In this document: positions 6,109 through 57,300 of the stretch, in pieces
Position numbering within the stretch: position 1 is the stretch's first letter
Layout: the number at the start of each line of letters is the position of its first letter
Assembly: GCA_013076295.1 (NCBI GenBank)
Contig: RQOL01000658.1
Span: forward strand, 4,042,353-4,106,352
Reading direction: 5' to 3'
Length of the DNA stretch: 64,000 nt
DNA from: Sanderia malayensis
Taxonomy: Eukaryota; Cnidaria; Scyphozoa; Semaeostomeae; Pelagiidae
Program-made: the position numbers and the translations under genes
Notes under the pieces: model-generated
Told to the model about the DNA's origin: nothing
What the model saw: only the letters and a program-made list of their open reading frames with translations
The model's database searches: none

Positions 6109-8021
6109 GGTATTAGAACGACAATTCAAAAATTCTGAAAACAGGAAATCAATGAATTTTCGTTTTAGTTAAAAACTCGAAAATATCACAGCATTTTTGG
6201 GCTTTTTCTTCAAATTCAGCCACTCGCATTCTCTCGCATCATGTTCTCCATCCTTTTGCAGAATGAAAAGCGCATGTGCAACAATGTCTCGTTGTCAAAA
6301 AGAGGTCATAAAATGTTGTTTTATGTTTTGATCAACAATTTCACAAGTCTTTCTAAAAGAAATATTATGCTTAATTTTAAAGCAGCCTTTTTATATTAAA
6401 AAATAGTTATACCATTGCGAATAAACAAGCTCCTTCTCTATTATTTGAGAGATAACACAGCAAAACAAATAGCAGGATAGAAGATATCTTTAATTAAACT
6501 TGAGCTTTTGTTCAAAAATTACTCTTACACACAGTTGACATCGGCCATATCGACTGCGCATTATCTCGAACACTCGCTTTGTCGAACCATCTTCTATTTT
6601 CCCTGGAGGGAGAAATCGTGGTTAACAGCTTCATTTTATTGACTATGACAGTGAATCTCACCTGTTATCACTTATCAAGTAACTTGATAACGGGTCACAC
6701 CCGAAACGCCGTTCAACATTTTACTCCGCATAACTAAACTACTGTAACTTTCTCACTGATTTCCGCTGCACAGCAGAAAATCTTTAAAAGACACGTCTCG
6801 AAAATGAGGCAAATCGTCGATGCATGACAAATATCAACCAATGAAAGTTGTTGATTTTCATGCAAACAATGAAGGTAATTTAAAATTTGCTTCGGTTTAC
6901 TTCTTTTTGAAACGTGGAAAAAATATATGCGCGGCGCATGATGACAATGTTTGGAATTGCATATTTTGCCAGAAATGATTCAGATTTTTGATGGAAAAAA
7001 TTACATCTGCATAACATATCAGAAAAAGCTGTTGCAAAACAAGATTCCATGTCGACTAAAGTGGTGAGGTCCTTCCAGACCCTTTCCAGGAAGGGTCTTT
7101 AAGTCATTAAGTCTTGAGACGTTTGGTAGAATATGTATTCAGAAGTAGAATTGGGGGCCGAGCCATTGAGGCTCATTATTTAAATGCTCACGTTCCTATA
7201 CGTTGTACACCATTTAACATTTATCCTTATTCAAAAAACGATCATGTGTTACGTCAGCAATATCTTAAGCTAACTTCATTGCTGAAATAGAATCGAAAGC
7301 AACTGACCCCAGATCTCTAGACTGGAAGAAACTTCAATTCGCACCTTGAGAGTTTTCAACATAGCGGATGTCAATTGTAGCATTCTCGTTAAGTTATGAT
7401 CTCAACCAGATTTCCTAATTCCAAAGCTCCTACATGCATATTAATATTTAATGTTGTCAGAACAAAACAAGAGAGTTATTATTTCAAGAAGTTTTAAAAA
7501 CCCTTTGCAAAATTACGGTTGAGTCAGACAGGGCAGTGTTTAGAAAACACAAGTTTTATATTGCAATAGAAAAGTTCGTAAGGGAACAACAGGAATATGG
7601 CTACACAGCATAATAATAAAAATTAACAACTGGTGTTAAAAATACTTCATCTAACTTGGTTATGTTATGTTATGTTATGTTATGCATGTTATATTATTGT
7701 GTTTGGTATGCAAACGTTTATTATACTGCAGTCTGTTATCACGTGACAGATGTGACGTATTAAATGATTGGGAGATAAAACGAAAGGAGAAATGGACGAA
7801 GGCAGATACTTGTTGAATGGTGCATGGGAGACGCTTGCAAAGGTGAAATTGACATGCCTTATACCATATATGGTACTTACTCGCATTATTCATTAACTCA
7901 TCAACTCGCGTATTCGCAGTCTTGGCGCATTATCGAATATTTGGTTTTGTTGAATTTGAGACACGTTTCTGGAAATTGCCTAAGACAATTCAAATAACAC
8001 TGAGCTTGCTTCCAAAAAAAG
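6109..8021. other. Intergenic between UBC9 and a GPCR
   Basis: This is probably a divergent promoter region: UBC9 leaves on the minus strand and the GPCR on the plus strand. Apart from a short TTATG microsatellite near 7660 I see no repeat or coding sequence. Small reading frames here have no recognisable domain. Confidence 0.4.
7660..7684. repeat. TTATG microsatellite
   Basis: Five consecutive copies of the pentamer TTATG. Confidence 0.85.
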
Positions 8022-9706
8022 ATGGAATATCATAATAGTTCAAAAAACACGACGTCATTCCATCTGAACATTTCATCTGAAACAACAAAGCCACAAAACA
8101 ACGGAACATTGTTGAACACAGAGCCCCAACTGAACAACATACTGATGGTATGCCTGTATTCCGTGATATCTCTGGTCGGCATATTAGGCAACGGCTACGT
8201 GTGTGTAAGGATAGTTACAAAGAGTGCTAAGATATCGCACTTCACCATTTTACTGATTTCACTTGCCTCAGCCGATCTCCTATCATGCTTGGTGTCGCCA
8301 ATTGCGCTTGTACATGACTTGATAACGTTATCCTTCGGTCATGGCAAATGGTATCTTGGTGACGTAATGTGTGTATTGTTGCCTGCATTGACACCGATGC
8401 TTCTCGCTGCTTCCACCTGGACGCTGGTTGTCATATCCATTGAAAGATTCAGGTATGTTAACTGTGACGTAATGCAATCACCAAATCTGTAAACCCCAAA
8501 ATAACCGGCCGTAATAACGACGAGATGACTGTAATAGCGAGATGGCTGTAATAACGAGATGGCTGTAATAAGTTACTGTTAATAAGACGGCCCTAACTAT
8601 TAGGCGTGGTTATAACGAAGCCTGTTGCGCCATCTTCGTTGACTAAATTAAACATTTCTTCTCAATCATACACTTTCATTGATGACGCAGAAAGAAGAAA
8701 GCTGCTTCTCACCCGTGAACTTTTGAATGAGCATCCTATAGCTATTTCACAAGCCTAACCGAACATAACATGGCATGTTCTTTGGAGAAATTCACCTGCT
8801 ATTCCACTGATTAACTATTTCTCTAACTATTATGACCTTATCACGATGTTTGATTTTAATTATTAAATTATCAAATACATTTCTTTCAGTCCGTTTTGCT
8901 TCAAACGTTAAGATTTAAGCTCGAGCTAAAAAGGGTATTTGTCCCATTTCAGGGTTGTAGCCTACCCAGTATCAGCAAATCAGGACAAAATACTCATCTC
9001 AGTGGGGACACTGCTGGTTGTGTGGACCAGCGCAGCCTGTCTCTCCGTGCCAATGGGACTAACATGGCGAATGGAGAAAGGTGAAGCATGCATGGAGACA
9101 TCCAATCATCTATCTGATAAACAACAGTTCGCTTACCTCGTCGCTGTTACAATCATTATATGGGTAATACCTTGTTTCATCCTCACTTTCGTGTATACAG
9201 CAACTGCACGGCAGTTGAAAGCGAGTCAAATGCAACATGCCGATGATAGAGCAGTGGCACGCACGCTCAAGCAAACGAGACGCATTGTACGAATGTTTGT
9301 CATTCTGGTCGTCCTCTTCTCCTTGCTGTCGCTTCCGTATGCCGCGTTTTTCTGTGCAATCAGATACATCAAGGCGTATCGTCATGATCTACTCAACTCG
9401 AAAAGCAGGATCAATGAATTGGCATTGTGGAATACGGTTCTTTTTACGTCTTGTCTCCTCAACAGTGCAATCAATCCAATCTTCTACGCGAAAATCTTCG
9501 AAGCCAAACGAAGGAGAGGAGGCAGAGAACAAAGCTGCTGTGATGCGTTCAAGTCAAAGCTGCATGCCGTTAGTCCAAGGACAAGAGAATGTAGATTGAG
9601 CTGTGTTCCAGCATCAACAGCCACTACGGCACAAGTTGCTTCTATTTATCGCCATCCCAATGAACAATCGCACTGCACAAGAAATATAAACACCACAACG
9701 ATGTAG
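8022..9706 (+). CDS. Class A (rhodopsin-family) GPCR, peptide-receptor-like
   Basis: Two exons (8022-8452 and 8953-9706) join through a phase-2 intron inside the TM3 end motif, giving 394 residues and restoring ISIERFRVVAYP. The extracellular N-terminus carries four N-glycosylation sequons. GILGN marks TM1 (near 56), LASAD TM2 (with the conserved Asp at 85), a Cys at 117 starts TM3, and ERF at 141-143 replaces DRY. The second extracellular loop contains a Cys (EACMETS) for the usual disulfide. TM6 has SLPY in place of CWxP and TM7 has NPIFY. The overall look is that of neuropeptide receptors (NPY, tachykinin or galanin group), but I cannot assign a ligand. It is not closely related to the three GPCRs at 48-54 kb. 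Confidence 0.9.
8513..8571. repeat. Short tandem repeat in the GPCR intron
   Basis: Imperfect tandem copies of a unit reading roughly CGAGATGGCTGTAATAA (variants with ATGACTG and TAGCGAG) inside the single intron of the GPCR gene. Confidence 0.7.
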
Positions 9707-25425: not shown

Positions 25426-26196
25426 TCAGCAACTTCTGAGCAGTCTTTTTGAAGATGGTTTCTTCCAGAAAAAAGAGGATAATTGTTCACCAAATATATA
25501 AACAGCAGAGGCAGCAGTCATACAGCATATGACAAAAATTGTAAATTGAAACGGGGTTTGATCTCTGACGAAAAGGTAAGACCAATAACCCGTACGGTTT
25601 CCTACATATACCAGCCATACAACATAACTCAATGAAGCAAATGTCACAACAGATATTCCAATAAACCTTCTTGGGTAATGATGCAAGATAAGGTACACAG
25701 CAGCTATGTCCGAAAGCAATGGAAATGTATGAAGGTATTGGTTGTAAAGACCAGCAACTGGCATTACTCTAGTGTTTTCCGGTGTTAAGATACCATTTGG
25801 ATGGAGAACAACAACTCCCCAATATAAAATACACACCATGACACCAAACGGGAAGCAAAGAGAAACAAATATATTATCTCTGAAACGAACCAGACGACCA
25901 TTCCCATGTTTAATGGATTTTCCAGCTCCATCAGAGATATTTTGTAGCTGCACGGAGCTAGACTGGTAGTCATCGAGGAAGAACAAGTAGACATTTAGGC
26001 CCGTCGCAAAGAGGTAGAAAGTTGTGTGCATATACTGCGCCCAGTGTGTCAACGCTTTCATTCTTCCTCCATAAATGTTGTATGATTTGAGGTCAATATA
26101 CAAGAAGTCGTAGCAGCAACCAATAATGTTAATAATCAAGCAACATAAATGAAATACAAAAGCATTTTTCTTACCAATCATATTTTCAGCCATCAT
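25426..26196 (-). CDS. AIG1/ADTRP-family membrane hydrolase, copy 1
   Basis: The single-exon frame encodes 256 residues from the first ATG (an upstream in-frame TTG was not used as the start). It is rich in membrane segments, as expected for the multi-pass AIG1/ADTRP family. The family's two catalytic positions are visible: Thr in YGGRMKALTHW (near residue 50) and His in LYNQYLHTFPL, followed by the HHYP block. AIG1 and ADTRP are known as threonine hydrolases that cleave fatty-acid esters of hydroxy fatty acids in membranes, so a lipid-hydrolase role is likely. A diverged paralogue on the same strand lies 10 kb away, with the secreted-protein cluster between them. Confidence 0.88.
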   Translation of the reverse strand: MMAENMIGKKNAFVFHLCCLIINIIGCCYDFLYIDLKSYNIYGGRMKALTHWAQYMHTTFYLFATGLNVYLFFLDDYQSSSVQLQNISDGAGKSIKHGNGRLVRFRDNIFVSLCFPFGVMVCILYWGVVVLHPNGILTPENTRVMPVAGLYNQYLHTFPLLSDIAAVYLILHHYPRRFIGISVVTFASLSYVVWLVYVGNRTGYWSYLFVRDQTPFQFTIFVICCMTAASAVYIFGEQLSSFFWKKPSSKRLLRSC

Positions 26197-26238
26197 CTTT
26201 CTCAAACCCGGAAAAAGGTAAAGCAGTTGTAGTAGGTC

Positions 26239-26342
26239 CTTGACCTCGATTAGGCCCCGAGCCTCGAATAACCCTCCCCTCGAATAAGTTCCCAGACTAA
26301 AACAAGTTTTGCCAAATAAGCCCCGGGAGGCTTAATCGAGGA
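26239..26342. mobile_element. Short MITE with CCTCGATTA ends
   Basis: The left end CCTCGATTAGGCCCC and the right end GGCTTAATCGAGG form an inverted repeat around about 100 bp. The interior has CCTCGAATAA and AATAAGCCCC phrases, the same vocabulary as the 384-bp element at 31819. Confidence 0.6.
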
Positions 26343-27115: not shown

Positions 27116-27539
27116 CATGATTGGATATCATGACGCAGCACAGGGACACAAGCTGTTTAACTTTCAAGTTTTATAATGATCCAAAGCAGAGATGTCTTGT
27201 TTGATGAAAACAGGCTTCATGATATTACTGGCTCTGCCCTAATAGTTTGTTATTTGAATTCGGAGTTCAAGACAGCTTTCCCTTGTCTAGGGCCCTTTGA
27301 ATATTAATAATATCTTCCTTTGAAATATGAGGTGTAGTCCTTAAGGTGGTGGAATTTTACTGGGAACAATTAAATAATCCTGCACTCTTTCCTTGTAAAG
27401 CAGTAGACTGGAAAATAACCCATTATTGTTACCAAATATTGGGGTAAGTTTTGAAATCTCATTGAAATTATCTATAAAACATGAGCCTAAACAACAAGCC
27501 CAACAGTCACGAAGTGTCAGTGGTGAAGGCATTTCCAAG
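27116..27539 (+). repeat. Upstream (promoter) block of secreted family, copy A
   Basis: This block recurs upstream of each family copy: about 28073-28702 (B), 33191-33821 (C), and decayed at 30410-30640 (E) and 31010-31440 (D). Shared markers include TTACTGGCTCTGCCCTAAT, GTAGACTGGAAAA and TATTG(C/G)GGTAAGTTTTGA. It ends in the TATA box and non-coding first exon. Confidence 0.85.
27472..27479 (+). promoter_or_regulatory. TATA box, family copy A
   Basis: CTATAAAA, conserved with its context (ACATGAGC...AACAACAAGCCCAACAGTCAC) in copies A, B and C. Transcription should start about 30 bp downstream. The non-coding exon 1 then ends at 27539 (TTTCCAAG|GTAAGT). Confidence 0.7.
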
Positions 27540-27696
27540 GTAAGTGAAAGCTCCGAAGAGGCTTTTCAACCATTGTAAATTTGTTAAACTCAATTCTGAG
27601 GCAATTTTTCCTCACCATCGTCATAAGAAATGTCTACACAAATTATGTTGTGATAAATTCATAATGATTTCTTTAACAGATTCGACGCCTTGCTGC

Positions 27697-27858
27697 ATGA
27701 AAATGAAAGCCTATATGATCGCATCCATTCTCCTTTTTGGATTGTGTTGCCTCGTGCTTGCGACACCCAAAGGTAAGAATGACAAAAACATTTGCGTTGT
27801 ACTAGATAAAGAAAGTTATACACCTCTGTTTACTATATCTACACGTATGCACAAATAA
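27697..27858 (+). CDS. Secreted-family copy A: signal-peptide exon without its own C-terminal exon
   Basis: The coding exon follows an acceptor (TTTAACAG, exon from 27680), starts at MKMKAY and encodes a textbook signal peptide (ILLFGLCCLVLA, then TPKG), with a donor at 27772/27773 (AAAG|GTAAGA). No C-terminal exon lies before the next promoter. If unspliced, the frame runs on for 29 codons to a stop at 27858 (ending STRMHK). The run-on part lies in a block that is repeated upstream of copy C, so it is probably not selected coding sequence. The phase-1 donor would be compatible with copy B's C-terminal exon at 29046, so copy A may act as an alternative first exon. Function unknown. Confidence 0.5.
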   Translation: MKMKAYMIASILLFGLCCLVLATPKGKNDKNICVVLDKESYTPLFTISTRMHK

Positions 27859-28930
27859 ATTCTAGAATGTACTTCTACCATCCTTATATACACTTTATAC
27901 ATTCTATCTACTGTTATACACCTCTGTTTACTATATATACACGTATGCACAAGTATATCCTAAGTGTTGAATCGTATTTTGTCAATGTCAATATACCATG
28001 ACTGCTTATTTGCAAAATCGAAAGCTTAACTGGACTTTTACTCAACATTAATTACAAAATCAAGAAAAGCAAACATGATTGGATATCCTGATGCAGCACA
28101 GAAACACAAGCTACTTAACTTTCAAGTTTTATAATGATCCAAAGCAGAGATGTCTTGTTTTATGAAAACAGGCTTCATGATATTACTGGCTCTGCCCTAA
28201 TGGTTTGTTATTTGAATTCGGAATTCAAGACAGCTTTCCCTTGTCTAGGGCCCTTTGAATATTAACAATATCTTCTTTGAAATATGAGGTGTAATCTTTA
28301 AGGTGGTGGAATTTTACTGGGAACAACTAACTGTGGAGAAAGCAGATTTCATTTGGTGATAGCCTAATTTGATAATAACAAAACCAGTCAGATTACTGGC
28401 TGATTGCTGCTTTTGGAAATCTTATCATTTAAATCAGTTTGTTCCATTATGTTACAGATACACTTGCGGTTCAGCAATCTCCATTGGTGGGTAACAAAAT
28501 ATGCTGATCCCATAATGAAGGATATGAATTTCAAGGCACAATCCTGAACTCTTTCCTTGTAAAGTAGTAGACTGGAAAAAACCCCTTATTGTTACAAAAT
28601 ATTGCGGTAAGTTTTGAAATTTTATTAAAATTCTCTATAAAACATGAGCGTGAACAACAAGCCCAACAGTCACAAAGTGTCAGTGGTGAAGTAATTTCCA
28701 AGGTAAGTGAAAGCTCCGAAGATGCTTTTCAACTTTTGTAAATACGCTAAGCTCATTTCTGAGGCAACATTTCTTCACCATCGTCATAAGTCTATACAGA
28801 ATATGTTGTGACAAATTCATAATGTCTTCTTTAGCAGGTTCCACGCCTTGCTGCATGAAAATGAAAGTCTATCTGTTCGCATCCATTCTCCTTTTTGGAT
28901 TGTGTTGCCTCGTGCTTGCGACACCCAAAG
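27780..28930 (+). repeat. Segmental duplication, left copy (B upstream region and signal exon)
   Basis: Matches 32900-34054 over about 1.15 kb, beginning at ACAAAAACATTTGCGTTG and running through the TATA promoter, non-coding exon and signal-peptide exon. By eye the identity is very high, in places above 95%, implying a recent duplication that created the 5' half of copy C. Confidence 0.85.
28635..28642 (+). promoter_or_regulatory. TATA box, family copy B
   Basis: CTATAAAA in the same context as copies A and C. The non-coding exon ends at 28702 (TTTCCAAG|GTAAGT). Confidence 0.7.
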
Positions 28931-29506
28931 GTGAAAATATTTCAATTGACTTGCAGCAGAGAGACTCCCTTAACAAAACCAATCATTTATTATACCCTCA
29001 TTTTTTGTAATGGTAACTGAAGCTTATTAAATCTGTTTATCATAGTCGCTAAACAAAATGACGAACTTGCAAGCCCAAAGGTAAAAGATTACAAGGAGGA
29101 GGCAGCAGATAAGGATGCCAACAATGAAGTGAGTGATGAAATGGAATCCAAAGGGCCATCTAAATTGATTGAAAGTGACAAGACTTCAATGAACAACGCA
29201 GCCCAAAAGAGTCCAAGCTATCGTCGCCGTAGTTATGTTCGCCGCCGCAGATATACTCGTCGCCGCGGATATGTTCGCCGCAGATATACTCGCCGCAGAT
29301 ATGTTCGCCGCAGATATGTTCGCCGTAGATATACTCGCCGCAGATATGTTCGCCGCAGATATACTCGCCGCAGATATGTTCGCCGCAGATATGTTCGCCG
29401 TAGATATACTCGCCGCAGATATGTTCGCCGCAGATATACTCGCCGCAGATATGTTCGCCGCAGATATGTTCGCCGCAGAAGCCGTCGCCGCCGCAGGGCT
29501 TGGTGA
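28855..29506 (+). CDS. Secreted precursor with acidic propiece and arginine-tyrosine repeat tail (copy B)
   Basis: Two coding exons (28855-28930 and 29046-29506) join at phase 1 to 178 residues. The start is the MKMKVY Met conserved in all copies, since an acceptor at 28837 places the earlier ATG in the intron. Residues 1-22 form a signal peptide. Residues 23-83 are mixed-charge to acidic (KEEAADKDANNEVSDEMES). Residues 84-178 contain 57 Arg among 95, as RRRYV and RRRYT pentapeptides, closing RRRSRRRRRAW. No Cys occurs after the signal. A secreted polycation with an acidic propiece recalls cationic antimicrobial precursors (for example Hydra arminins) in layout, not in sequence. Alternatives are a polyanion-binding structural protein, Tyr cross-linked matrix or a protamine-like protein, though a signal peptide argues against the last. 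No known family is recognised. Confidence 0.8.
29283..29486 (+). repeat. 15-bp coding repeat with a 75-bp higher-order period
   Basis: Thirteen consecutive 15-bp units CGCCGCAGATAT(GTT/ACT) encode RRRY(V/T). The order T-V-V-T-V repeats with a 75-bp period, and a silent CGCCGTAGA variant recurs at the same place in each period. This shows that blocks of five units were duplicated together. Confidence 0.9.
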
Positions 29507-31009: not shown

Positions 31010-31531
31010 ATCATTGGATATCCTAATGCAGCACAGGGACACAAGCTGTTTAACTTGTCAAGTATTGTAATGATCTAAAGCAGAGATGTTGTATTTTATA
31101 AAAACAAGTTTCGTGATCATACTGGTATAGCCATTATGGTTTATCATTTGAATAACAATTAAATGGCTAGATCCAATGAAATATTTTCTTCCTTTCAAAT
31201 ATGAAGTGGATTATGTAGATGTTTAAACTGGTGCATTTTTGCTGACAAAAACTAATTGCAGAAAAAGCAGGATGAGATTTGGTCATAACCAAATTTGGTA
31301 ATAACCAAACAATGCAAATCAATGCATCACTGTCCGATAATGTTACAAATACACTTGCGGTTGAGCAATCTGTATTGGTGCGCAACAAAATCCATTAGTC
31401 CAATAATGGAGGGCATGACTAGGGCATGGTACCCCACGCTTTGCCAGATGAAGAGAGAGATGAAATGGAGTTCAGAGAGCAATCTGAATTAAGTCCACGC
31501 GACAGAACAGATATCATCCTTCTCGGTGGCT
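31010..31531 (+). pseudogene. Family copy D: upstream block fused to a C-terminal exon remnant
   Basis: From 31010 the sequence follows the family upstream block. At about 31437 it jumps directly into C-terminal exon sequence, so the TATA box, first exon, signal exon and intron are deleted. The remaining frame (31443-31531) reads DEERDEMEFREQSELSPRDR, then TDIILLGG and a stop, clearly homologous to copy C. Without a promoter and signal peptide it is probably a pseudogene. Confidence 0.7.
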
Positions 31532-32690
31532 GATGAAATGCAGAGTAAACAAAAATGCTGAAGTACAATGAACAGGATTGAAAATAAACATTTAGCATTA
31601 GTGCGTTGTAAAAACCACGTTTTTTTCATTATATAACCCGAGATGAACATTAATAACTTTCGTTCTTTATGCGTTCAATTACTTGCTGTATCTGAACACG
31701 TTCTGGCTGATAATGATAAACGTAAAATTATCAAATTCCGTCAAAAAGTTCTGACGAAAGCAGAAGTGCGAAATTCAGAATTTAGCAGAATTCCTCACAT
31801 TAAAAACTCTTGGGTATACCGTAAATCCTCGAATTAGCCCCCTGGGGGCTTATTTATTTTTGACATTTTCAGAGGGGGGCTTATTCGAGGGGGGGGCTTA
31901 TTCGAGGGGGGGGCTTAAAAAACTATCTGAAATATGGCACAAAAATTGACGTTGCTACTGAGAAAATAAACGGGAAATTGGTTTAGTTGTTCCAGCAAAG
32001 TATTTTGCATACACAGATAATCAGAAGAATGCCCAGATATTGGTGAAAAAACGGTCAGAAAAACAAAATTTTCTCGAACTCGCTGTACGCAAACATGAGC
32101 ATGTTTGGGGTGGGGGCTTATTCGAGGGGGGGGCTTATTAACAATTTGTTGTTCTAGGGTGGGGGCTTATTCGAGGGGGGGGGCCAATTCGAGGATTTAC
32201 GGTAACAAACGAAATTTTACACTCGGTATAGCAAATATTTTATCTTTTATTTTCATTCAAGTGTTATGAGCAAGATTTCCAATCTTCTCTCCGGGCTGTC
32301 ATTGTTAAAATCAAAATCATGCCTCGTTCCGAATCAGAAATGAATGTTTCGATGGAACGGTTTGGAGTGCTTCAATCAGAGACTTTGCCATATATGGGCA
32401 GCTCAACAGAAACACACAAGCAAGGGCCACAATGTAAGGTCGCAGGCTCATAGCCAGCAACACGACAAGTAGTCTGATGGTTAGTCCCCGATGTATGCAT
32501 CCTATAAGGTCCCGAAAAGTTGACGACATACATATCCTATAGGAGCTAAGGATCCAGAAACATTGCTGATGTCATTAATATCCTGAAGGATCCCAAAACA
32601 TTGTTAGAGCCACATATGTCATATAAGAACGATGTTGCAGTGAAGATGAAATGTATAGAGATACAGTAAACTGTAGGATGTATTTGCGCA
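31532..32690 (+). repeat. 3' flank block X, copy D side (contains a MITE)
   Basis: Homologous to 34373-35520. It runs from the CATTAGTGCGTTGTAAAAACC region through GGTCCCGAAAAGTTGACGAC to ATGTATAGAGATACAGTA. It contains the 384-bp MITE that the other copy lacks, and lacks the hAT MITE that the other copy has. Confidence 0.8.
31819..32202. mobile_element. 384-bp TA-flanked MITE with CCGTAAATCC ends
   Basis: Terminal inverted repeats CCGTAAATCCTCGAATTAG and CCAATTCGAGGATTTACGG are flanked by TA on both sides. The interior has repeated GAGGGGGGGGCTTATTC phrases and no coding potential. The paralogous site near 34641 (GGTATAACATACG) is empty, which fixes the boundaries and the TA duplication, as for Tc1/mariner-type targets. 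Confidence 0.88.
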
Positions 32691-32899: not shown

Positions 32900-34054
32900 A
32901 CAAAAACATTTGCGTTGTACTAGATAAAGAAAGTTATACACCTCTGTTTACTATATCTACACGTATGCACAAATACATTCTAGAATGTACTTCTACTATC
33001 CTTATATACACTTTATACATTCTATCTACTGTTCTACACCTCTGTTTACTATATATACACGTATGCACAAGTATATCCTAAATGTTGAATCGTATTTTGT
33101 GAATGTCAATATACCATGACTGCTTATTTGCAAAATCGAAAGTTTAACTGGACTTTTACTCAACATTAATTACAAAATCAAGAAAAGCAAACATGATTGG
33201 ATATCCTGATGCAGCAGAGAGAAACAAGTTGTTTAACTTTCAAGTTTTATAATGATCCAAAGCAGAGATGTCTTGTTTTATGAAAACAGGCTTCATGGTA
33301 TTACTGGCTCTGCCCTAATGGTTTGGCATTTGAATTCAGAATTCAAGAGTATTTTCCCATGGCTAGAGCCGTTTGAATATTAACAAAATCATCCTTTGAA
33401 ATATGAGGTGTAATCTTTAAGGTGGTGGAATTTTACTGCAAACAACTAACTGTAGAGAAAGCAGATTTAATTTGGTGATAGCCAAATTTGATAATAACCA
33501 AACCAGTCAGATTATTGGCTGATTGCTGCTTTTGGAAATTTTATCATTTAAACCAGATTGTTCCATTATGTTACAGATACACTTGCGGTTCAGCAATCTC
33601 CATTGGTGGGTAACAAAATATGCTGATCCCATAATGAAGGATATGAATTTCAAGGCACAATCCTGAACTCTTTCCTTGTAAAGTAGTAGACTGGAAAAAA
33701 CCCCTTATTGTTACAAAATATTGCGGTAAGTTTTGAAATTTTATTAAAATTCTCTATAAAACATGAGCGTGAACAACAAGCCCAACAGTCACAAAGTGTC
33801 AGTGGTGAAGTAATTTCCAAGGTAAGTGAAAGCTCCGAAAAGGCTTTTCAACTTTTGTAAATATGTTAAGCACAATTCTGAGGCAACTTTTCTTCACCAT
33901 CGTCATTAGAAATGTCTATACAAAATATGTTGTAACAAATTCATAATGATTTCTTTAACAGATTTGACGCCTTGCTGCATGAAAATGAAAGCCTATCTGT
34001 TCGCATCCATTCTCCTTTTTGGATTGTGTTGCCTCGTGTTTGCGAGGCCCAGAG
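32900..34054 (+). repeat. Segmental duplication, right copy (C upstream region and signal exon)
   Basis: Counterpart of 27780-28930, bringing promoter, non-coding exon and signal-peptide exon to copy C. Confidence 0.85.
33754..33761 (+). promoter_or_regulatory. TATA box, family copy C
   Basis: CTATAAAA in the same context as copies A and B. The non-coding exon ends at 33821 (TTTCCAAG|GTAAGT). Confidence 0.7.
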
Positions 34055-34372
34055 GTAAGAATATTTCAATTGACTTGCAGCACAGAGAAATATCGTTAAC
34101 AAAACCATGCAACGTAGAAATTATCTCGTGAATTTTTGTAATGGACACTAAAAGAAAGTTCATTAACTCTATTTATCGCAGCCGATAAAAGGGAAAGGGC
34201 AAACAAGTATAATGACCACGCCTTGGAGGATGACGAATTTGACGATGAAGATGATCTGATGCAAGATGAACCGAGAGATGAAATGGAGTTCAGAGAAGAA
34301 TCTCCACAAAGTCCACGCGACAGATCAGATGACGCTTTCGGCCTCTGGTGGGTGGTGGGGAAAGCAGAGTAA
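33979..34372 (+). CDS. Small secreted acidic precursor (copy C)
   Basis: Two coding exons (33979-34054 and 34182-34372) join at phase 1 to 88 residues. Residues 1-22 are the family signal peptide (ending CCLVFA). The mature part begins RPRADKRERANKYNDH, continues with a strongly acidic stretch (LEDDEFDDEDDLMQDEPRDE), then EMEFREESPQSPRDR, and ends FGLWWVVGKAE. DKR and RER near the start and a GK near the end are possible processing sites. The DEMEF core aligns with the DEMES part of copy B and with relic D, so all three C-terminal exons are related, while the C-terminal 20-90 residues differ completely. No known family is recognised. Confidence 0.72.
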
Positions 34373-36412: not shown

Positions 36413-37174
36413 CTACTCCACTTTATCAGCCTTTGATGGTGTTGCCAAGATCGAAGAATTAATATAATACCCAAGTAGAAAAAAGGAAATTCCAACAAAA
36501 TAGAAGCCACCCAAAAAGACAGTAACACCCAGCCAGCTCATGACTTTGAGAACAGGATAAACCCATATATTAGCTTTAAAAGCAATCCACAACAACCAGG
36601 CAATATAAATTACACAGAAAAAACTAAATATCAAAAGTCCCAATGTCTTACTTGGGAAGTTATGATGTGAAACAAAAGTCAGTTCAATAAACCCCATGAA
36701 CAACGGTAGTGAATGTGCACAATGATTGTATAGGCCATGGACTGGTATCATGTGTCTCAGATGTGATGGTAGCATGAGTTCAGAGTCAACTGCCATAACT
36801 CCCCAAAAAGCTGTTGTCACAATTATACCAACTGGAAATATGATTGAGCCAAACATCGTATCTCTAAAATTGATCACTTCTTCGTAAAAACAACTAAAAT
36901 TGTTGCTCTTCTTCTTGTCGTTCGTTTGAAATTTCTTTGAGTCTGAGCAGCCATAACTGCAATTCTTCAAGCCTGCTAGGCAATCTGCAGCCAAGGCCAC
37001 AGAAAAATATGATGTTGACAGAATCAGATTGATGAAGGTTAGAAATTTGAATCGACCTCCATAAGAATTAGTTACACCTTCGATAAATATATTCGCAATA
37101 TTGTGATAAATGGTTGATGCAAAGATAAAAAAAGCTACAGCGTGGAAAAAAAACTCTGACCTTTTTCCAGCCAT
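36413..37174 (-). CDS. AIG1/ADTRP-family membrane hydrolase, copy 2
   Basis: 253 residues are encoded if translation begins at MAGKRSEFFFHAV. The frame is open for 62 more codons upstream, but that part lies in CpG-rich promoter-like sequence and has no family similarity. Multi-pass hydrophobic segments are present. The catalytic Thr lies in YGGRFKFLTFINL and the catalytic His in LYNHCAHSLPLF, followed by SHHNFP, as in copy 1. A Cys-rich insertion (CLAGLKNCSYGCSDSKKF) lies between the second and third membrane segments, where copy 1 has a shorter linker. It should act as a membrane lipid-ester hydrolase by family analogy. It is substantially diverged from copy 1, so the duplication is old. 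Confidence 0.88.
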   Translation of the reverse strand: MAGKRSEFFFHAVAFFIFASTIYHNIANIFIEGVTNSYGGRFKFLTFINLILSTSYFSVALAADCLAGLKNCSYGCSDSKKFQTNDKKKSNNFSCFYEEVINFRDTMFGSIIFPVGIIVTTAFWGVMAVDSELMLPSHLRHMIPVHGLYNHCAHSLPLFMGFIELTFVSHHNFPSKTLGLLIFSFFCVIYIAWLLWIAFKANIWVYPVLKVMSWLGVTVFLGGFYFVGISFFLLGYYINSSILATPSKADKVE

Positions 37175-37884
37175 TTTGCAATATGCGGAAGGAAGGAAGG
37201 AGAAACGAAAGCCCAAAGCAGAAAGGGGAAACAAGGGAATTAAAAAAGCCAGTGCCAGGCCAGCACATGTCGAATCACGCGGATGCAAATTGCGTTCGCG
37301 TGTCGCGCGGGCATACGAGTGTTCAAAACCGCGGGTGGAGCAAAGGGGAGGGGCTGGCAAAAGGGACTTGGATGACCACGCCCCCTAAACGTTGGAAAAA
37401 TGCCGGCAGGTCAAAAATATTGTAGATGAAGAAGGTGGGTAGGGAAATTGAGAGCACTTAGAAAGAAAACAACGTTCATTGCATTGATTAACTTGAGCTG
37501 CTCTTGAACAAACTTTTCAAGTCAGATTTGGACGCCATGTTGCGCGAAAAATATCTGTTGCTGCTGTTGTGCCGAAGAGAAGCAAACGATGACGTAATGC
37601 GGGGCAAGTTCAAGCAGAGCATTACGGTTCGAGTCCCAAACGTAGGCGCATGCTAACTACGTTGTGTCCGTGTCCCCACAATTGATACAATCATGCTCAA
37701 TTAAGAGCATAAGTAATTTTACGAGTATATATCAGTGGGACAAATGCCAGAGCTGAAAAGCCACGGGGTATTCAGTTTCGAATGTGTGCAATGCACTTGG
37801 CAAATTAGTGGGTTGTGGTTATAGTGGCAACTGTGCAATGGCAATTGTCCCCCGGTGTACCAGATTGAGTATCCTAACCGGGGA

Positions 37885-48300: not shown

Positions 48301-51300
48301 GCTTACAGAAGGTAACGCTTTATCGAAAAAGTAAGGCACTTAAATAAAAAACTTATTAGCCGGTAGTGACTAACTAGCTAATCATGGGTTGTTAAGTCCA
48401 TGATACAGTGTTCGTCTTTTATTTGATTTAGCAACAAGAAATTATCCAGGAAAGGTTTCCAGGCATCTGAAGAATGAATTCATCTACTAGTAATTTATCT
48501 GCGTGCATCACACGCAAGACTGTCGTCGTATTTAACATCACATGCATTGATTTGAAAATCATTTATTTCATATCGGGATGGTACAAGTACAGCTTAATCG
48601 CCATCATGGCATTCGACGCCATCTTGACCGCTCCGACAATAATCATGAACCTATTAACGGTAATCGTAGTGGCAAAAAACCGGTCACTACGAACCATTTC
48701 GAATTTGCTGCTGGTCAGTTTGGCAGTAACTGGCAATAATTGTTAGCTTGGCGTGGGTATTGAAATGCCAGCCAATCTGCTGGTTATTTGTCATGGTCTA
48801 TCAAATTGGATATTACTTAGTGACTTTATCGTTCTTGACAGTAACCGCGGTGGCATTAGATCGCTACACCGCTATATTCTACCCATTTTACTATCGCAAA
48901 TGGACAGCAACAAAGCGGAATCTTTGTTATGTCATAGCAGTTACATGGCTACTTCCAATCCCGATCGTGGCAGTATCCTTTGCTACGTCACATATGACAT
49001 TACAGCAGCGAGTATTGGCCATTTTAGCTCCATTTGCAGTGGGCATCAGCATTTACGTGCAGTTCAAGACAGTCAGGGCTGTGAACGCAATACGGAAAAG
49101 AGAAATGAGCCTAACAGTCGGTTTGCATGCTCATCTCAGCAACAAAGAACGGAGAAAACAACAAGCGAACAGAAAATCTACGAAAGTTGCCACTATGATT
49201 CTCGTCACAATGATCGCATGCTATCTGCCTCAGTCGGTTCTAACGATCATACGGATGTTACAAAGCAACAAGTACGACTTCCAAGGCATCTATGATTGGA
49301 CAAAATCTCTCGTTTTATTGTGTTCGATGCTCAACCCGATCATCTATTGTTTGATGTTGACAGAAGTGCGCAAAAGAATTTCCCGACTTTTCCGTCAATG
49401 CAAAAACAACGTTTATCCGGTCTCCAATTCGGGTAGCAACATCTCCTCAGCGGCACTGTCAGACTTGGAAAGCAGACTTTGATCAATGTACATTCCACTT
49501 ACATTGGTATATGTATCTCGACAAAAAACAACGCAAAATACAGAACAAATAAAACCGAATATCAATCAAGGAATGATGTGTACGCGTTCTGTAATGAGAA
49601 GCAGATGTCAAATGACAATGTGGTCATCCTTTCAAAGAGATATTGATAAGAGTAAACGTGAAATAATAAGTAATGCAATAGAACCGTCAAATTGTCATAA
49701 CTGGCATAGTCGGTACTTTAATATTCACAAAAGAATTCGGGTTTCTTCAGCCCTTGCATGCAAACACATGCATCTGGGAAACTAGCTCACCAGCTTATAC
49801 AAAGAAAACGACAGAAACATGGACATAAAGCTTCTTGCTTTGTAAACAAGACAAAGAAAAACAAACAAAGAAAAACATAACAAAGCTAGGCAAACATCAA
49901 AATACCAGTCGAAATATCAAGTATTTTCACGTCCAGTAAAGCTACACCTGATTGTGTACCAAAAGGACAGATAAAAAATTAATTGCAAGCTAACAATACC
50001 GCAGGACAGCTTGAACAATACAACAGACAACCAAAATTCTTTCAAGGAATATTATCTTCCTATTTAAACTGTTTCATGGTTGCCTTAAACTGTTGTTTGT
50101 CTATAAATAACGCTAAATGAAACATTGATACTAGACTACATAACAATGTATATTATACTTTCTATAGGGGACCTTAAGTTTTCTGGAAAACTTTGATTAC
50201 AAAAATTAAATTTCCAAGAATTGGTGTGAGCCAGCATCTGTTAATTATTAAGATATCAAAATTCACCACGAACAAAACCAGTATAGTGGAGAATGTAAAC
50301 ATTAATTGTTTATAATTTCCTGAAACAAATTGATGAATCAATAGACTATTATCTTCTTTCCAAAATAACAAACATTGTCAACAAATAGAAAATAAGCAAA
50401 ATCACTGAGAGTTTGCTTAAAAACCCAATTCCGAAAAGACACACAAAGCTACACAAGTTTGCTCCTGCTTGAAGAATGACAAAATGTGAAAATACAATGG
50501 CGTGAAATACAAAGATCGAAGATTGGACACCTGCACTGCAATAGAAAAACTGCATTCATTTTGGAAAGCAAAATCAAGTATGATTGGTTAAAACTAGCAA
50601 CCAGAACAAGCTTAACATATCAGAAATATTTTTGTTGCCTGTACAAAAAGTGCACACACAAGCACAAAACAGAAGGCGCATGGAATTGGTGCTGGTTGGA
50701 AGCAGTGACAAGTTGGCCCAATCATGTCTGTGTCTCTGAAGAGAAATTTTACATGCCTGAAAGAAGGCGACGAGAAGATTCGACTGTTGTTCAAGTGTCA
50801 CAATCTCGATATGAACTATCCTCTTTATGATTCATACGATAAAAGCTTTCTTGGTGTGAGTTTGTTTGATTTCATTCTGGCTCCATTGACAATGTTCATG
50901 AACGTTGTCGTTCTCTTCACCATCTACAAGCACAAATCACTGCACAACAAACCAGCCAACTGTATCATATTCAGCCTAGCACTCAGTGACATGCTAACCG
51001 GCCTATTTACTCAACCGATCAAGGGCATAGTCATGCTAAATATATTCAAATGCGAGCCGAATTGTGCGTTCAACATTGCCGCTCTTCAGTTGTCGTATTC
51101 TCTTGGCATCGTGTCGTATCTTACTCTATCGTTGATTACGCTTGAACGCTACATCGCCATAATCCACCCTTACAAATACCAGCAACTGACCACAAGCAAC
51201 AAATTGGTCATCAGATTGATAATTGGGATCTGGCTTCTCGCAACACTGACAACAGGCCTAAGTTTTCTTACGCCGCAAATGCTGTTGCAGCGGCTCTTTG

Positions 51301-54300
51301 CGATCGGCATAAGCGTTGTTTCCTTTGCGCTCTGCGTCACCGCGCACGTGAAAATTGTCCGCACGGTAAACGGAATTCAGCGCAACATCAGGCGACAACA
51401 AACAACGGCGCGGGGAACAAGTCTCAGTGCAATAGACGGCGGAACGAGATTCGTAGCAAATCGCACAAATGTCATGTCAAAGGCAACAGCAGTGGCGCTA
51501 AGCGTGCTAATAGTAATGTCGTTGTGCTATCTACCCAGTGCCGTATTTACGGCACTGCGATTTTTCGGTATGGACAACGATTTCGTCAGAGTGTTTCAAG
51601 ATTGGACGAACAGTTTCGTCCTAATGAACTCAACAATCAACCCCTTGATCTACTGTTTCCAAATGAAGGACATGCGAAGGAAAGCGTATGAGATTATCAA
51701 ACCGAGGAGATCCACTCGCATAAGCGAATGTACGCGAGGAGAAATCGGGCCTCACAAGGAAATTAGTGGTCAAAGAGGAAGACAACACGTGCAAAACCAT
51801 CGCATAGAGGCAAAAACAAAGGAGACACAGAAACGAGACACAACGATCTTCTAATGACAACGAGGCTTCTTGCACAATTCAACATCCCCGTAGATTGGGA
51901 TAATGTGTAGCAATTGTATAGAAATAAAAACTGCAAATGTTCCAGTCAATCATATTGTCGTATACAGAAATCATAAAACTGGCAAATAGGAATCCTATAC
52001 CTTAACCAAAAGATACAATCATATTGTCGTACTGCTGATGCGATCAGTTATGACATCCAGCTTCAATGAATAATGTATCATTTAAGCATACATATTTCAA
52101 AAATGAAGCTACTGTGTTTGAAGACATTATTTCAATTCAAAACAAATAAAACAACAGTTCATAGTTTTCGAATTTTGTCGGCTAATCTAAATCTAGCCCT
52201 CCCCCGTTGCCATGGTATGCGGCACTGAGCGTATAATAGAATATTGTTGGAAAAAAGACAGTTGATTTCATGCTGTACGTGAAAGATGGTGAAAGCAAAC
52301 GTTGATAATAAACCTTTTGCCAGTCACAAAGAGCAATTTGTGAAAACAATGCAGCAAAAAATCGGGAAATTATGCAAGAAAATTCAGGAGCATCGATACA
52401 TGGATGTTCATCAATGTTCAATATCAATTATCAATATTGGATAAGAAAGAATAACCGTGAGAAAATCATACAAAAAATGCTGTCTGAGAATATACAATGT
52501 GTCACACATCTGCCGGAATACCACTCTAATCAACAACTTAATAACGCAAATATACGAGAGAATAGAGAAATGATCTTTCAAAATTAATTTGTCTAAGAAT
52601 TGAATGCTTGTAAACAGTAATTGATGATTTCTCCAGAGCCGGCGGTTCTAATCAGATGAAAGCATAAAGAAACTACAAAGAAGGCGATAATATTTGTACA
52701 GTTGCTATCTTTTCCACCCAAAAGAAGTGTGTTGAGTCAAGAAACGAGACTCGTGGCTGTGGGGTTAATCCCATGGGTTGAAGATTCGTAAGAGAATATT
52801 TTTGAAAGAGAATTTTGTTTACAGGAAAAACATTGTGAAACACTTGCATCGTACGACAAAGAAAGAAAGAACTGCTGGAAATTTTAATAGTATTTCTCTT
52901 GAAACACGAATGAAAGAGTCGAAGTTTCATCACGATTTATATGTATTAAACAGCTGTGTGGTAGAGAAGGACATTCAATAAGATAACAAGCCCTGATTAG
53001 GGCAAGACAACTCGAAAACCTCAAGAAACGAATATCAGTTTGAGTTCAGCAAGAAAGATGACCGTCAAAACCGCCTGTTATTCATTTCAATGTCTCAACG
53101 TGAGAGCACAGTATCCTTTGGATGATACATTCTACAACAGCTACATTGCAATGATAGCATTCGATAGTATATTGGGACCGATTGCTGCAACATTGAACTG
53201 TATGGTTCTCATAGTTATTATCAAGAATAGATGCCTACAAACAGTACCGAATGCCATTCTATTCAGCCTGGCTACGAGCGACATGATAGCCGGACTGGTT
53301 ATTCAGCCACTCAAGGCAGTAATGACTTATCAAATTATCAACAGAAACGTGGTCTGTGGATTATACATCACCAGTCTTCAGCTGGGCTATCTCATAGGAA
53401 TGACATCGTATTTATCGCTGACACTGATGGCTTTTGAACGATACTTCGCGATATTTCATCCATTCAAGTATTACAACTGGACAACTTCTAAGCGAATAAT
53501 AGTCAGACCAATAATCGCGATATGGCTCCTGTCGATTCTGATAATCGCTCTTAGCTTCTCTACACCGCAGATGACGATAATGCGTTTATTTGTGATCACT
53601 TTAATTCCAACTTCAATCGCATGGAGCGCGTTCGTGTACATTCGCGCCTGTTTACTTGTCAAGCGGATCAACGTTCAAACGGCAAGAATAACAATCGTTA
53701 CTGAATCAACGAAACACGACGAAAATGCTGTTGCGGACGGTGTAGCGCTTGAAACACGCTGTACCGCTAAAGCAGTGGAATATCCTTCCGCAGTCGGAAA
53801 GAATTCCTTACACAGAGAAGACAAGGGACTTGGGAAGAAGAGCAAACAGCCGCCAAAAAGAAAAGCATCCTCCATTGCAAGACAAGGGCCTAACTCAAAA
53901 GCCACTCGCCTTGCAGTTGTCATTCTCGTTGTACTGGTGATATGCTATATTCCTAGTTGCGTGCTGACGTTCATGCGGGATTATTCGCGCGTGAAAAAAC
54001 GCTGGGTATTCGGCGTTCACGATTGGGGTACCAGTTTTGTGTTGTTGAATTCTACGCTGAACCCTATCATCTACTGTTGGAAACTCAGTGAAATGCGAGT
54101 GAAAATTCTGGATTTCCTGAAAAGCATCTGCTGCGCGAAGCGGCAGGCAGAGATCACAGAAAAATGATGTTGTCAAAAAACTTGCTTTGACGTCCCAAAA
54201 AACCTTGCGATATAATTTAATTAAATTTTTGGAAGCTTAAATCAAAACTTGCGGTGTCGAAATAATGAGAAAATTCAGGAGTAAATACAGCTTACTCTAT

Positions 54301-57300
54301 GTATACTATAACACACAAGAAGATTTTTACTTGGATGAATGAAATTGAATCGACAACCACATTGAATATTAGACTATAGCAGTCTAAATTAAACAGATCA
54401 GAACAATTGGTCAGATGCAGAGATTTCTAAAGGGTCTCGTTGTTTCGTTGTTGCAGGACATTTTTCTAACGATGATATACAAGTGGTCGAGGGATGATCG
54501 GGACAAGAAAACTTATACATGGTAAAAGAAAAATCAAAGATACGGCTTGTGTAAAATTATCCCAACATCTCCCTTCTTTGCGGTTTTAGTTCGATCCTCG
54601 TCATTAAATCTAGGACACTACAATTGACTGTGACAAAGTAAAGCCGACCTATCATTGTACTGCTTATTCATTTGGCCTCTTTCAACCTTTAAGTTAACGT
54701 GTTACTGACAGAGTGGCAAGTTAATCTTGTAATGAACCACTAGAAAATCAGAACCAGCAGAGCAATCTACTTACAGGAGAGATATCTGGGCCCACAAACG
54801 CAAAATGGAGCTGAAACACAAGATAAATAAAAAAGACACTTACTTGTTGAAGGCAACGGACGTAGGAATTCGAATGCGTTGAGTCTTATCTTTCAATGCA
54901 TTCACCTTAAATAAAATGCAATTATGCATTAGATTTGATATAGCAAATATTCCAAACACTGAGGAAATGGAATTGAAGGAAGAGACTGATTGTTGCATAC
55001 GTGTTGATAAATTAGCTCACTTCTACCAATAAATTATTCAACCGTGGGAATATTTCATCGAAACATAAAGATAACTAGTAAAGTTTAATAGAGTTAATTA
55101 AAATTAATTAAAAATATCATACCTCGGTTTGAAGAGTTGAAAGTGTTCTTAGATCCTAGCATAAAAAAATTATTAGACTGAAAAAGAATTATAAAAAAGA
55201 AAGAGTTATACTGCTTCTACTTAAAGTTTTAATTCTTTTTACTACAGTAATTAACACAAAAGTGCCAAAATCAATTGGTTGGAAAAATTTTCAAAAATTA
55301 ATTAGCGGGGGGACAGCAACTAGGCACCTAAGAGGAATTAAGATTGTCCCACAATCAAATTACTATTGGTCTTATTAGCCTTTTATCATGCTGTCTCTAT
55401 TAGCCAATAGTTCTCCCAATTTCAAGATATCTTTATTGATCTTACCACCGTCTCTATGGACGCCATGTGAGATGTTTCATTTACTGTTCTCTATCTCTCT
55501 TACATCTATAATCATGTACAGCTAGGTTGCAATCAAGCAGCCTAAAGTGATACTCAATAAGCAGCTAAATTACCTTTCTGGAAAATCTGTTTGTGTAACT
55601 CTTATATCCAGCATCGAACACATTAGTCTCATCTTCCTAAAAAGGAAACTAACCCGGTTACACATTACGCACAAGCTTAAAGGCAAATTAATCACATGAT
55701 CCAAAGAGCTTCAAAGATATCTTCTCAAAGTTCTTCTCCCTAAATTTCACAGACAAGACAGGAAACTTTAATAAACAACCAAGTATACCCGTAGCCTGTG
55801 GACTCTCCAAAATGCTTCTTCCTCTTTCATAATAAGAATTCTTTCGGACTTTTTCTTTTCTTTCAGAACTCTAAAAGAAACAAGCAAGATCGATTGAATA
55901 TAGCTAGTGGAATAACTTTGACTAATTAGTTTTAGTTCACGTAAGATCGACGTTGCCCTCACGCTTTACTCCATGAAAATGGCGTTTCTATTTATTACAA
56001 GATTTCTATTAATGAGCAAGATAGCTGAATTTGAGCTTAATGTCCAAAGAAAGGTTGGACATTTTTCTGAGAATGCTATATTGCAGTGACAGTGAGTAAA
56101 AACATAATTCGCCCCAATACCTGTACTGTTCTTCAGCGGCTTTCATGACGCTACTCCACCTTGAGCCAAATAATTCCAGGAGCTTGGTAAAGTAAACCTA
56201 GAAATTGGAAAGAAAACGATAAAATGCTTACAACAAATACAAAATGGCGATGATACAAATAAAGCAAAGGTTGAAAACTAAATGAAATTAAAGATTAAAT
56301 AACATATGTGTACATGATGATTCAGCAGCTTACCAACTCGTCTTGTCGCAGGCCATTCTTGTCTTTTGATAGCATCTTCTTCTTCACCAAATAAACAGCT
56401 TGAAAGTAATTTCATTCGACAATAACAGAGGAACAATCAATAGTAAATAGTAAATAGTAAATAGAATACAAGAAGCAGCACAGAATATGAAAACAAAATG
56501 TTGGGCATACAAAACAGTTTTTATGAGTTGGTAACACCCACCATACTCCTCCTCACTGCCATCTGGTTTCTGCGAAGGCCAATACTTTGAATTCTGAAAA
56601 GGAAACAAATAAATTAATTGCAAGACATTTGTCAGAGAAGACGATGCATGCTGTTAGTAGATACTGTGCAATGACTTAAAAACTGAGGGTAAGAACATTG
56701 CAGAGTGGATGCGGCAAAATAAACTTAGTCTAAACACCAATAAAACTGAATATATGGTCATTGGTCACAAAAGACGAATTAACCATATCCAGGGGGACAT
56801 AAACGTGGAAACAAATGGAGTAAAAATCCAACGAGCCCATGATGTAAAATATCTAGGAGTCACTATAAATGAAAACCTATCTTGGAACAAGCAGTACAAG
56901 AAGCTTAAGTGTAAACTTAAATGTGGTCTTTCTTCTTTGAGGAAACTTAAAAACATACTCCCACAATCGAAACTGGACCAGGTTTACAGGGCAGTCTTCG
57001 AGAGCCATCTAAGATACGGTGATGAATTATGGGGAAGTCTGTCCAATACAAAGCTTGAACATCTTCAGCGTCTTCAAGACAGGGCTCAAACATTAATTCA
57101 AAGTGCAAAATTTGAGGACGGGTGGATCTGTAAATGGCTGTCAGTTTCGAACCTAATTAAATATGACAGGGCTATAATGACGTACAAAATGATAAACGGT
57201 CTTTGCCTTGACAGCCTAAGAGGTAAATTTATCACTAGATCAGAGATATCTAGCTATTCGACAAGGAATCAGCTTGATATTGACATCCCAAGGCATAATT

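Follow-up and report, generated by a model that had tools for sequence, protein, structure and literature searches.

A large family of arginine-triplet repeat genes in the jellyfish Sanderia malayensis and its possible antibacterial role

What use would a jellyfish have for a protein, apparently secreted, in which well over half of the last 95 residues are arginine? The gene in question lies in a 64,000-nucleotide window of the Sanderia malayensis genome (contig RQOL01000658.1, positions 4,042,353 to 4,106,352 of the forward strand), to which all positions given without a contig label refer. A preliminary description, made from the letters alone, had proposed two exons (28855–28930 and 29046–29506) encoding a signal peptide, an acidic propiece and an Arg/Tyr repeat. 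This layout, the splice and the residue counts were right: the exons join in frame to give a protein of 178 amino acids, the final 95 of which comprise 57 Arg, 17 Tyr, 10 Val and 6 Thr among others.

Coding exon 1 (MKMKVYLFASILLFGLCCLVLATPK; 28855–28930, forward strand) was called as a predicted signal peptide from its hydrophobicity and its conservation among paralogs, rather than with a signal-peptide predictor. The donor GTGAAA (phase 1) follows it directly, and the GT..AG intron (28931–29045) ends with the acceptor TTTATCATAG. Paralogs on C405 back this splice, as a signal exon and a phase-1 GT..AG junction in the equivalent place were best-scoring in all 11 open frames tried there. Similar signal exons were found in those 11 frames and, within the window, at 27697–27771 and 33979–34053. 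The splice sites in the C405 models, and in the type II models described below, were chosen by a custom score built from pyrimidine tract, donor match and acidity.

Exon 2 begins with the propiece (29046–29221), which ends in NNAAQKSPSY; a similar motif, (A/T)Q(K/N)(N/S)P, closes the propieces of L002 and of many C405 members. It is followed by the Arg tail (29222–29503), built of pentads of RRR plus YV or YT, and by the TGA stop codon (29504–29506). The first units of the tail are irregular (SYV, RYT and GYV) and its end reads SRRRRRAW. Tandem Repeats Finder placed the array at 29260–29479, with a period of 15 and 14.7 copies. The protein has two cysteines, both within the signal exon, and so the six-cysteine framework found in the mature part of cysteine-stabilised antimicrobial peptides such as aurelin and the defensins is absent. 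Although the propiece holds 13 acidic residues, its net charge comes to no more than about −3, where the tail has +57, so that "acidic" is a weak word for it.

Other copies lie nearby on the same strand. Similarity identified the signal exon at 27697–27771 as part of a truncated upstream copy, in which no array is reached before the next copy starts near 28.0 kb. A propiece fragment at 31441–31515, supported by 3′ flank similarity at 31531–31675, marks another, degenerate copy. Paralog B (33979–34372; exons 33979–34054 and 34182–34372) encodes 88 amino acids; its signal exon is similar and its propiece acidic, but it has no Arg array and its C-terminal end is AFGLWWVVGKAE. Array-less members of this kind, with a similar signal exon, an acidic piece and short, varied C-termini (e.g. 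AFGLWWVVGKAE), were seen at 33979–34372 and at L042, L043 and L044. A short frame, MS(L/V)NNKPNSH(E/K)VSVVK, is conserved at 27481–27540, 28644–28694 and 33763–33813; it appears to lie in a 5′ UTR exon, with a GTAAGT donor after it, and may be an upstream ORF or a relic. The copy at 27481–27540 has no stop.

The genome of S. malayensis was then searched by exon with four family queries. These gave 58 matches for the window protein (E 1e-3) and 75, 54 and 117 for the other three (E 0.01), in overlapping sets. Picking by eye and merging of rows from the four match tables left 87 places, 55 of them on seven contigs longer than 1 Mb; the remainder, some of them on small contigs, may be second haplotypes. 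One of the 87 (C613:3804939) has no array. The sequences of about 40 arrays were read, several of them near-copies of each other. On this evidence from sequence, the window gene belongs to a large family with several dozen loci in the genome of this pelagiid scyphozoan. The single protein of the preliminary description is real, but it is one of many.

Three architectures were distinguished. In type I a signal exon is followed by a single exon carrying both propiece and (RRRXX)n; the loci are the window, C613:3.95 Mb, C405:1.04–1.13 Mb, C807 and C569:1.07 Mb. In type II (C613:0.22–0.28 and 0.73–0.78 Mb, C611 and C612) the signal is MRTFVCLAVLLGLALC or close to it, and a strongly acidic exon of its own stands between the signal exon and the array exon; the longest tail, of 372 residues with 73 RRR and 220 Arg, is of this type. 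Type III arrays are (RRXXX)n, for example RRISY, RRIGY or RRVSF, and occur at C580, C825, C571, C479, C616:6.02–6.10 Mb, C829, C309 and C613:0.66, 1.16 and 2.36 Mb. In one type III branch EEKLAKREPFF precedes an array such as (RRISY)n, which ends in RWG; in the other the array is mostly preceded by EQADPKPFF and ends in RRWGK. A hydrophobic signal exon is present in all three types, and those of types II and III look alike, although homology throughout all three types is not claimed.

The order of signal, acidic piece and array was recovered in 11 of 11 C405 open frames tried, and seven of the eight type II loci tried could be modelled; in type III, matching kinds of exon are visible. Some of the type II models need care. 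For 739053, 757863 and 775166 more canonical exon-3 acceptors exist than the ones used, the model for 273733 is open to doubt, and locus 277135 was left without a model because the exon-1 pattern missed its signal exon, which is visible. A gene model, P0001, joins a family-type signal and propiece to a reverse-transcriptase-like stretch, and at locus L006 the propiece stands without an array.

Arg makes up about 60% of the tails of types I and II and 40–53% of those of type III, with aromatics in addition. Among 21 arrays, from a scan in which frames with RRT were discarded as a guard against antisense reads, the number of RRR per array runs from 6 to 73. The regular X pairs take 30 forms, YV, WA, AV, WS and YY being the commonest. 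X is mostly aromatic, aliphatic or small, and no regular pair in these 21 arrays contains D, E, K, Q, P or G. In a wider, unfiltered scan WE and WG turn up as well, both of them forms of the unrelated repeat protein at L037; WG also occurs once or twice in the C807 arrays.

Is the arginine frame the one that is translated? Open frames alone are not decisive, the +2 frame being stop-free in 19 of the 21 arrays and one antisense frame in 20, and codon-position bias was therefore used as the criterion. All units were walked through and changes were counted at the nine Arg-phase bases of each. In 20 arrays there were 49 synonymous and 9 non-synonymous changes, where 28.7% synonymous would be expected under neutrality (binomial P about 1e-18, a figure that overstates the case because the arrays share ancestry). 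A single irregular unit in the 775-kb array accounts for seven of the nine non-synonymous changes, and array C405:1128789, within which a piece of the propiece is duplicated, was left out of the count. The window array alone has five synonymous changes and none that is non-synonymous. This excess argues that the Arg frame is selected and, together with the paralogs of like layout on many contigs, it rules out chance or a simple minisatellite.

The EukProt gene model for the window exon, P0002 (gene9322-10305_t), uses another frame, giving AADMF/AADIL repeats, and is probably a mis-annotation. For a C405 paralog there is a model, P0003, that follows the Arg frame through most of the array. P0002 also links the 5′ exon of the upstream copy to the window exon (27481–29506). 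An unrelated repeat protein with KKMGE units, L037 (C726:3029500–3030500), gives RRRWE/RRRWG in a side frame, so similar-looking strings can arise off-frame.

Propieces were compared in 13 pairs. In ten dS exceeded dN, in two of these barely; examples of dS/dN are 0.84/0.29, 0.52/0.10, 0.71/0.24, 0.38/0.067 and 1.29/0.44. The three pairs with dN above dS are all close pairs and include window/L002 (dN 0.10, dS 0.067), for which reason the propiece of this subgroup is not visibly constrained. The window copy is atypical of its family in having a near-neutral propiece, a tail that ends in AW without a C-terminal Gly, and a propiece with no sign of constraint against its nearest paralog.

Amidation is usually signalled by a C-terminal Gly or Gly-Lys, and KR is a usual convertase site. 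Both were looked for around the arrays. Directly before the stop, 29 of the 39 complete family arrays have G (20) or GK (9), though these are not independent counts because many of the arrays are near relatives; the window array is among the ten without. KR stands just upstream of the array in one type III branch (KLAKR-EPFF), and type I has no such site before its array. Tails of 36 of the 39 contain no acidic residue, a count to be read with the scan pattern in mind, as this itself disfavoured acidic units by requiring five without D and E. When a wider set of loci was scanned without either filter, 44 frames were returned: the same 40, an antisense read, L037 and the fusion gene described below, which appeared twice through two overlapping loci. 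Complete frames then numbered 42, the three extra ones being the antisense read, the fusion gene and the unrelated repeat protein; 29 of the 42 end in G or GK and 36 have a tail free of acidic residues. The six exceptions are the antisense read, the fusion gene, L037, L002 (one acidic residue), L024:7108 (two, degenerate) and L034 (one).

Net charges of acidic piece and tail were computed for eight array-bearing members. In three type II members the acidic piece carries −33 to −40 against +24 to +41 for the tail, and here charge masking is possible; in three C405 members (−22 against +24 to +42) partial masking is possible. For the longest tail masking was rejected, 220 Arg being too many. Nor does it work for the window copy (−3 against +57), for which the preliminary description had drawn the parallel with masked antimicrobial precursors.

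The strongest hint to function came from C569:3997391–3998521. This is one open frame of 377 codons, in which SNDDDDDDSQIEKRSPWGSRR is followed by 37 RRx(G/S)(Y/F) pentads, 25 of them RRIGY, and then by ITFDSEGN and SGVTLGRGYDMK. The last part of this contiguous piece scores 29.0 bits (E 1.2e-6) against PF16754 of Pfam (Pesticin: homologue of phage lysozyme), for which the cut-off is 25.8, and the score rises to 32.4 bits when the next exon is added at a guessed junction. An exon scan of the genome gave this fusion as the sole match to PF16754, at 26.2 bits, just above the cut-off. By an estimate made after the fact, such a match placed at random would have a chance of about 0.1% (some 174 kb out of 184 Mb) of falling within 1 kb of any of the 87 arrays. 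The Pesticin-like part has E, then T after 24 residues and D after 6 more, which may correspond to the catalytic Glu, Thr and Asp of such muramidases. The lysozyme-like piece had no sequence match in the PDB and none above cut-off in NCBIfam, and a signal exon for the fusion gene was not located. Unlike this gene, the window array and the other complete arrays read end at a stop, with no such domain after them. The fusion nevertheless places a family array in one frame with what is predicted to be a peptidoglycan-cutting enzyme. As the two share a reading frame, it seems likely that the tails act on bacteria, by binding and killing them.

The reading preferred here, to which we would give an even chance, is that the family arrays are polyvalent secreted cationic proteins with antibacterial action, released from precursors. 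The signal would be removed in the ER and the acidic piece cut off, at KR in the one type III branch and at some other site in type I; a C-terminal Gly would be converted to the amide. Arg triplets would then bind phosphates of the bacterial envelope, many at once, with the aromatic or aliphatic pair inserting into the membrane interface. Repeat number would set avidity through this multiple binding, and in the fusion the array would bring the muramidase to the cell wall. For the window copy the mode of action would be no different. The antimicrobial parallel of the preliminary description is in this way strengthened by the family, with its acidic exons, C-terminal G or GK, KR in one branch and lysozyme-domain fusion, and fails in one respect, the masking of the window tail.

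The layout is that of arminins from Hydra and of arminin-like precursors in placozoans, which have a signal peptide, an acidic N-terminal piece, a cationic C-terminal part, a C-terminal Gly for amidation and several paralogs (PMC12013895). The family shares the order of parts, with the window propiece at only about −3 net; a terminal G or GK stands in 29 of its 39 complete arrays, and the window copy has AW there. Arminins are described as alpha-helical (PMC11767717), and they were compared with the family by description only. For eight family tails the hydrophobic moment is 0.01–0.09 at 100 degrees and peaks at 0.69–1.08 at 72 degrees. With near-zero moment at 100 degrees the pentad period does not give an amphipathic helix; in this, and in running to 372 residues, the arrays differ from arminins. 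Single-sequence AlphaFold2 modelling of the exon-2 protein produced one long tail helix (mean pLDDT 67.3 in the best of five models, 46–53 in the others), which as modelled would not be amphipathic. Judged from sequence, the best reading is therefore arminin-like in layout and not in helix periodicity, and since the pentad period lacks helical amphipathicity the action would be "linear amphipathic".

Designed peptides offer an analogue for such chemistry. Arg/Trp/Val peptides in which Arg and hydrophobic residues are kept in separate blocks kill bacteria, and the linear-amphipathic L-RWV12 is antibacterial with a mean MIC of 3–4 μM (PMC11504230). The same paper reports no high membrane perturbation by the L-RWV series and a drop in activity beyond 12 residues, with MIC values of up to 24–32 μM for L-RWV16 (PMC11504230). 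The last point disfavours a simple reading in which longer is stronger; polyvalent binding with interfacial insertion would be the mechanism favoured here. Like the family, the L-RWV series sets cationic and hydrophobic blocks of Arg and Trp/Val side by side in the chain; it is synthetic, of 8–16 residues and a single block pair, whereas the family is natural and repeated, with 6 to 73 RRR. Several observations count against the antibacterial reading. At up to 372 residues the arrays are much longer than usual antimicrobial peptides, and their RRR would be exposed to convertases; for the window copy, the nearly neutral propiece, the AW end, the excess of dN over dS against L002 and the other frame of P0002 all weigh on the same side.

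The main rival, which we regard as unlikely, is that these are secreted polycations that condense an anionic polymer (nematocyst poly-gamma-glutamate, acidic mucus or mesoglea glycans) into a structural or adhesive coacervate through Arg and aromatic contacts. The composition given above fits this, very long arrays of up to 73 RRR suit a polymer, and an external polyanion would fit the window copy in particular, because it has almost no counter-charge of its own. The C-terminal G or GK and the KR site, however, suit a processed peptide better, and the fusion to a lysozyme domain is left unexplained. The sequence evidence holds nothing in favour of the nematocyst, DNA or Tyr-linked-matrix roles that the preliminary description had listed as alternatives. 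The paper on the Sanderia nematocyst proteome uses none of the words "arginine", "repeat" and "antimicrobial" in its main text (PMC7766711); this neither supports nor refutes a nematocyst role, because such a protein would leave few tryptic peptides. That the window copy is instead a decaying or mis-read member of a real family, its array surviving as a coding minisatellite, is decidedly unlikely. Its truncated (27.7 kb) and degenerate (31.4 kb) neighbours, the missing C-terminal Gly, the window/L002 dN above dS and the frame of P0002 would all be accommodated; its signal exon, splice sites and exon-2 frame are nevertheless intact, and the five synonymous changes without a non-synonymous one within the array speak against decay.

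Two further possibilities can be given much less weight. With its regular units and RRR as a convertase-type site, the array could be a multi-copy peptide precursor, from which cleavage at each triplet would free dipeptides such as YV or WA. In neuropeptide precursors, though, a conserved peptide alternates with variable spacers and basic cleavage sites, and the arrays show the reverse, with RRR constant and XX in 30 forms in 21 arrays. As it is Arg, and not X, that is constant, this is highly improbable, and we know of no product class of signalling dipeptides. A protamine-like sperm nuclear protein is scarcely credible: protamines, cephalopod and other molluscan ones among them, do resemble these tails in their very high content of Arg with Tyr, but they are nuclear, whereas the family has a predicted signal exon, hydrophobic in all three types (judged without a predictor), and an acidic piece. 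It is the signal exon that makes this role unlikely. Hydrozoan cnidarians are reported to lack protamines (PMC9903204), a statement that does not extend to scyphozoans.

The preliminary description had known of no named family with this repeat, and none was found to cover it: the window protein reached the cut-off of no Pfam model, its best PDB sequence match had E 0.33, and six repeat strings of the arrays were absent from the papers covered by a full-text search. Nor was a paper on such arrays found, as judged by titles, abstract openings and a few passages. A secreted cationic precursor with an acidic piece is a known kind of molecule; an effector of Arg-triplet pentads, with dozens of loci and a lysozyme fusion, has no counterpart known to us.

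Relatives in other organisms were sought with a profile of seven family proteins. It retrieved three "merc" proteins, P0004–P0006 (E 5.5e-4 to 5.6e-3), which have a type II-like signal (LLGLALCISAT) and an acidic piece; the sequence of P0004 stops at EQDPYYYRR. Their source was presumably assembled from marine metatranscriptomes, in which case they would be expressed. A second profile with these three included added two more merc proteins and, from short NCBI contigs, P0011 (E 2.7e-7) and P0012 (E 3.9e-6), which resemble the acidic exon and the signal exon. A full array from another animal was not found in these profile searches. P0007, from another genome, has a signal-like start, an acidic piece and RRRRYTRRRW (E 0.75) and is a lead only, possibly to a distant relative. 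The bacterial-looking matches P0013–P0015 and P0008 were set aside; P0008 has, like the family, a leader and an Arg/Tyr/Trp tail of the RRRYW type, but with E 1.9 against the family it is taken as convergent. Since gene finders can mis-frame such exons, as P0002 illustrates, relatives may lie unrecognised in other cnidarian genomes.

More tentatively, and with less than an even chance, the arrays may form a new class of animal host-defence effectors: encoded polymers of Arg-aromatic pentads, from a few to about seventy units, with linear amphipathicity, differing in repeat number and X residues among dozens of tandem paralogs and in one case fused to a peptidoglycan-cutting enzyme. By array length and chemistry the jellyfish would then tune its bacterial partners and enemies. 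If this were true, few sets of arginine-rich secreted proteins known to us would be as large or as extreme as that of jellyfish. It would be a natural counterpart of the designed Arg/Trp/Val antibiotics, in which repeat number and activity could be compared across dozens of variants, and would give a direct handle on how jellyfish control bacteria.

The remainder of the window carries other features. A domain scan found two FAR-17a/AIG1-like genes on the reverse strand, one on each side of the cluster (25429–26331 and 36416–37384), and rhodopsin-type GPCR frames at 8004–9706 and 48730–54164, three of them consecutive at 48.7–54.2 kb (the frame 8930–9706 was left out). A frame at 56661–57428 resembles, by eye, the 3′ end of a non-LTR reverse transcriptase. 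Repeat and self-similarity analysis revealed an inverted repeat at 31817–32204 with tandem copies of the 17-base GGGGGGCTTATTCGAGG, which is likely to be a small mobile element.
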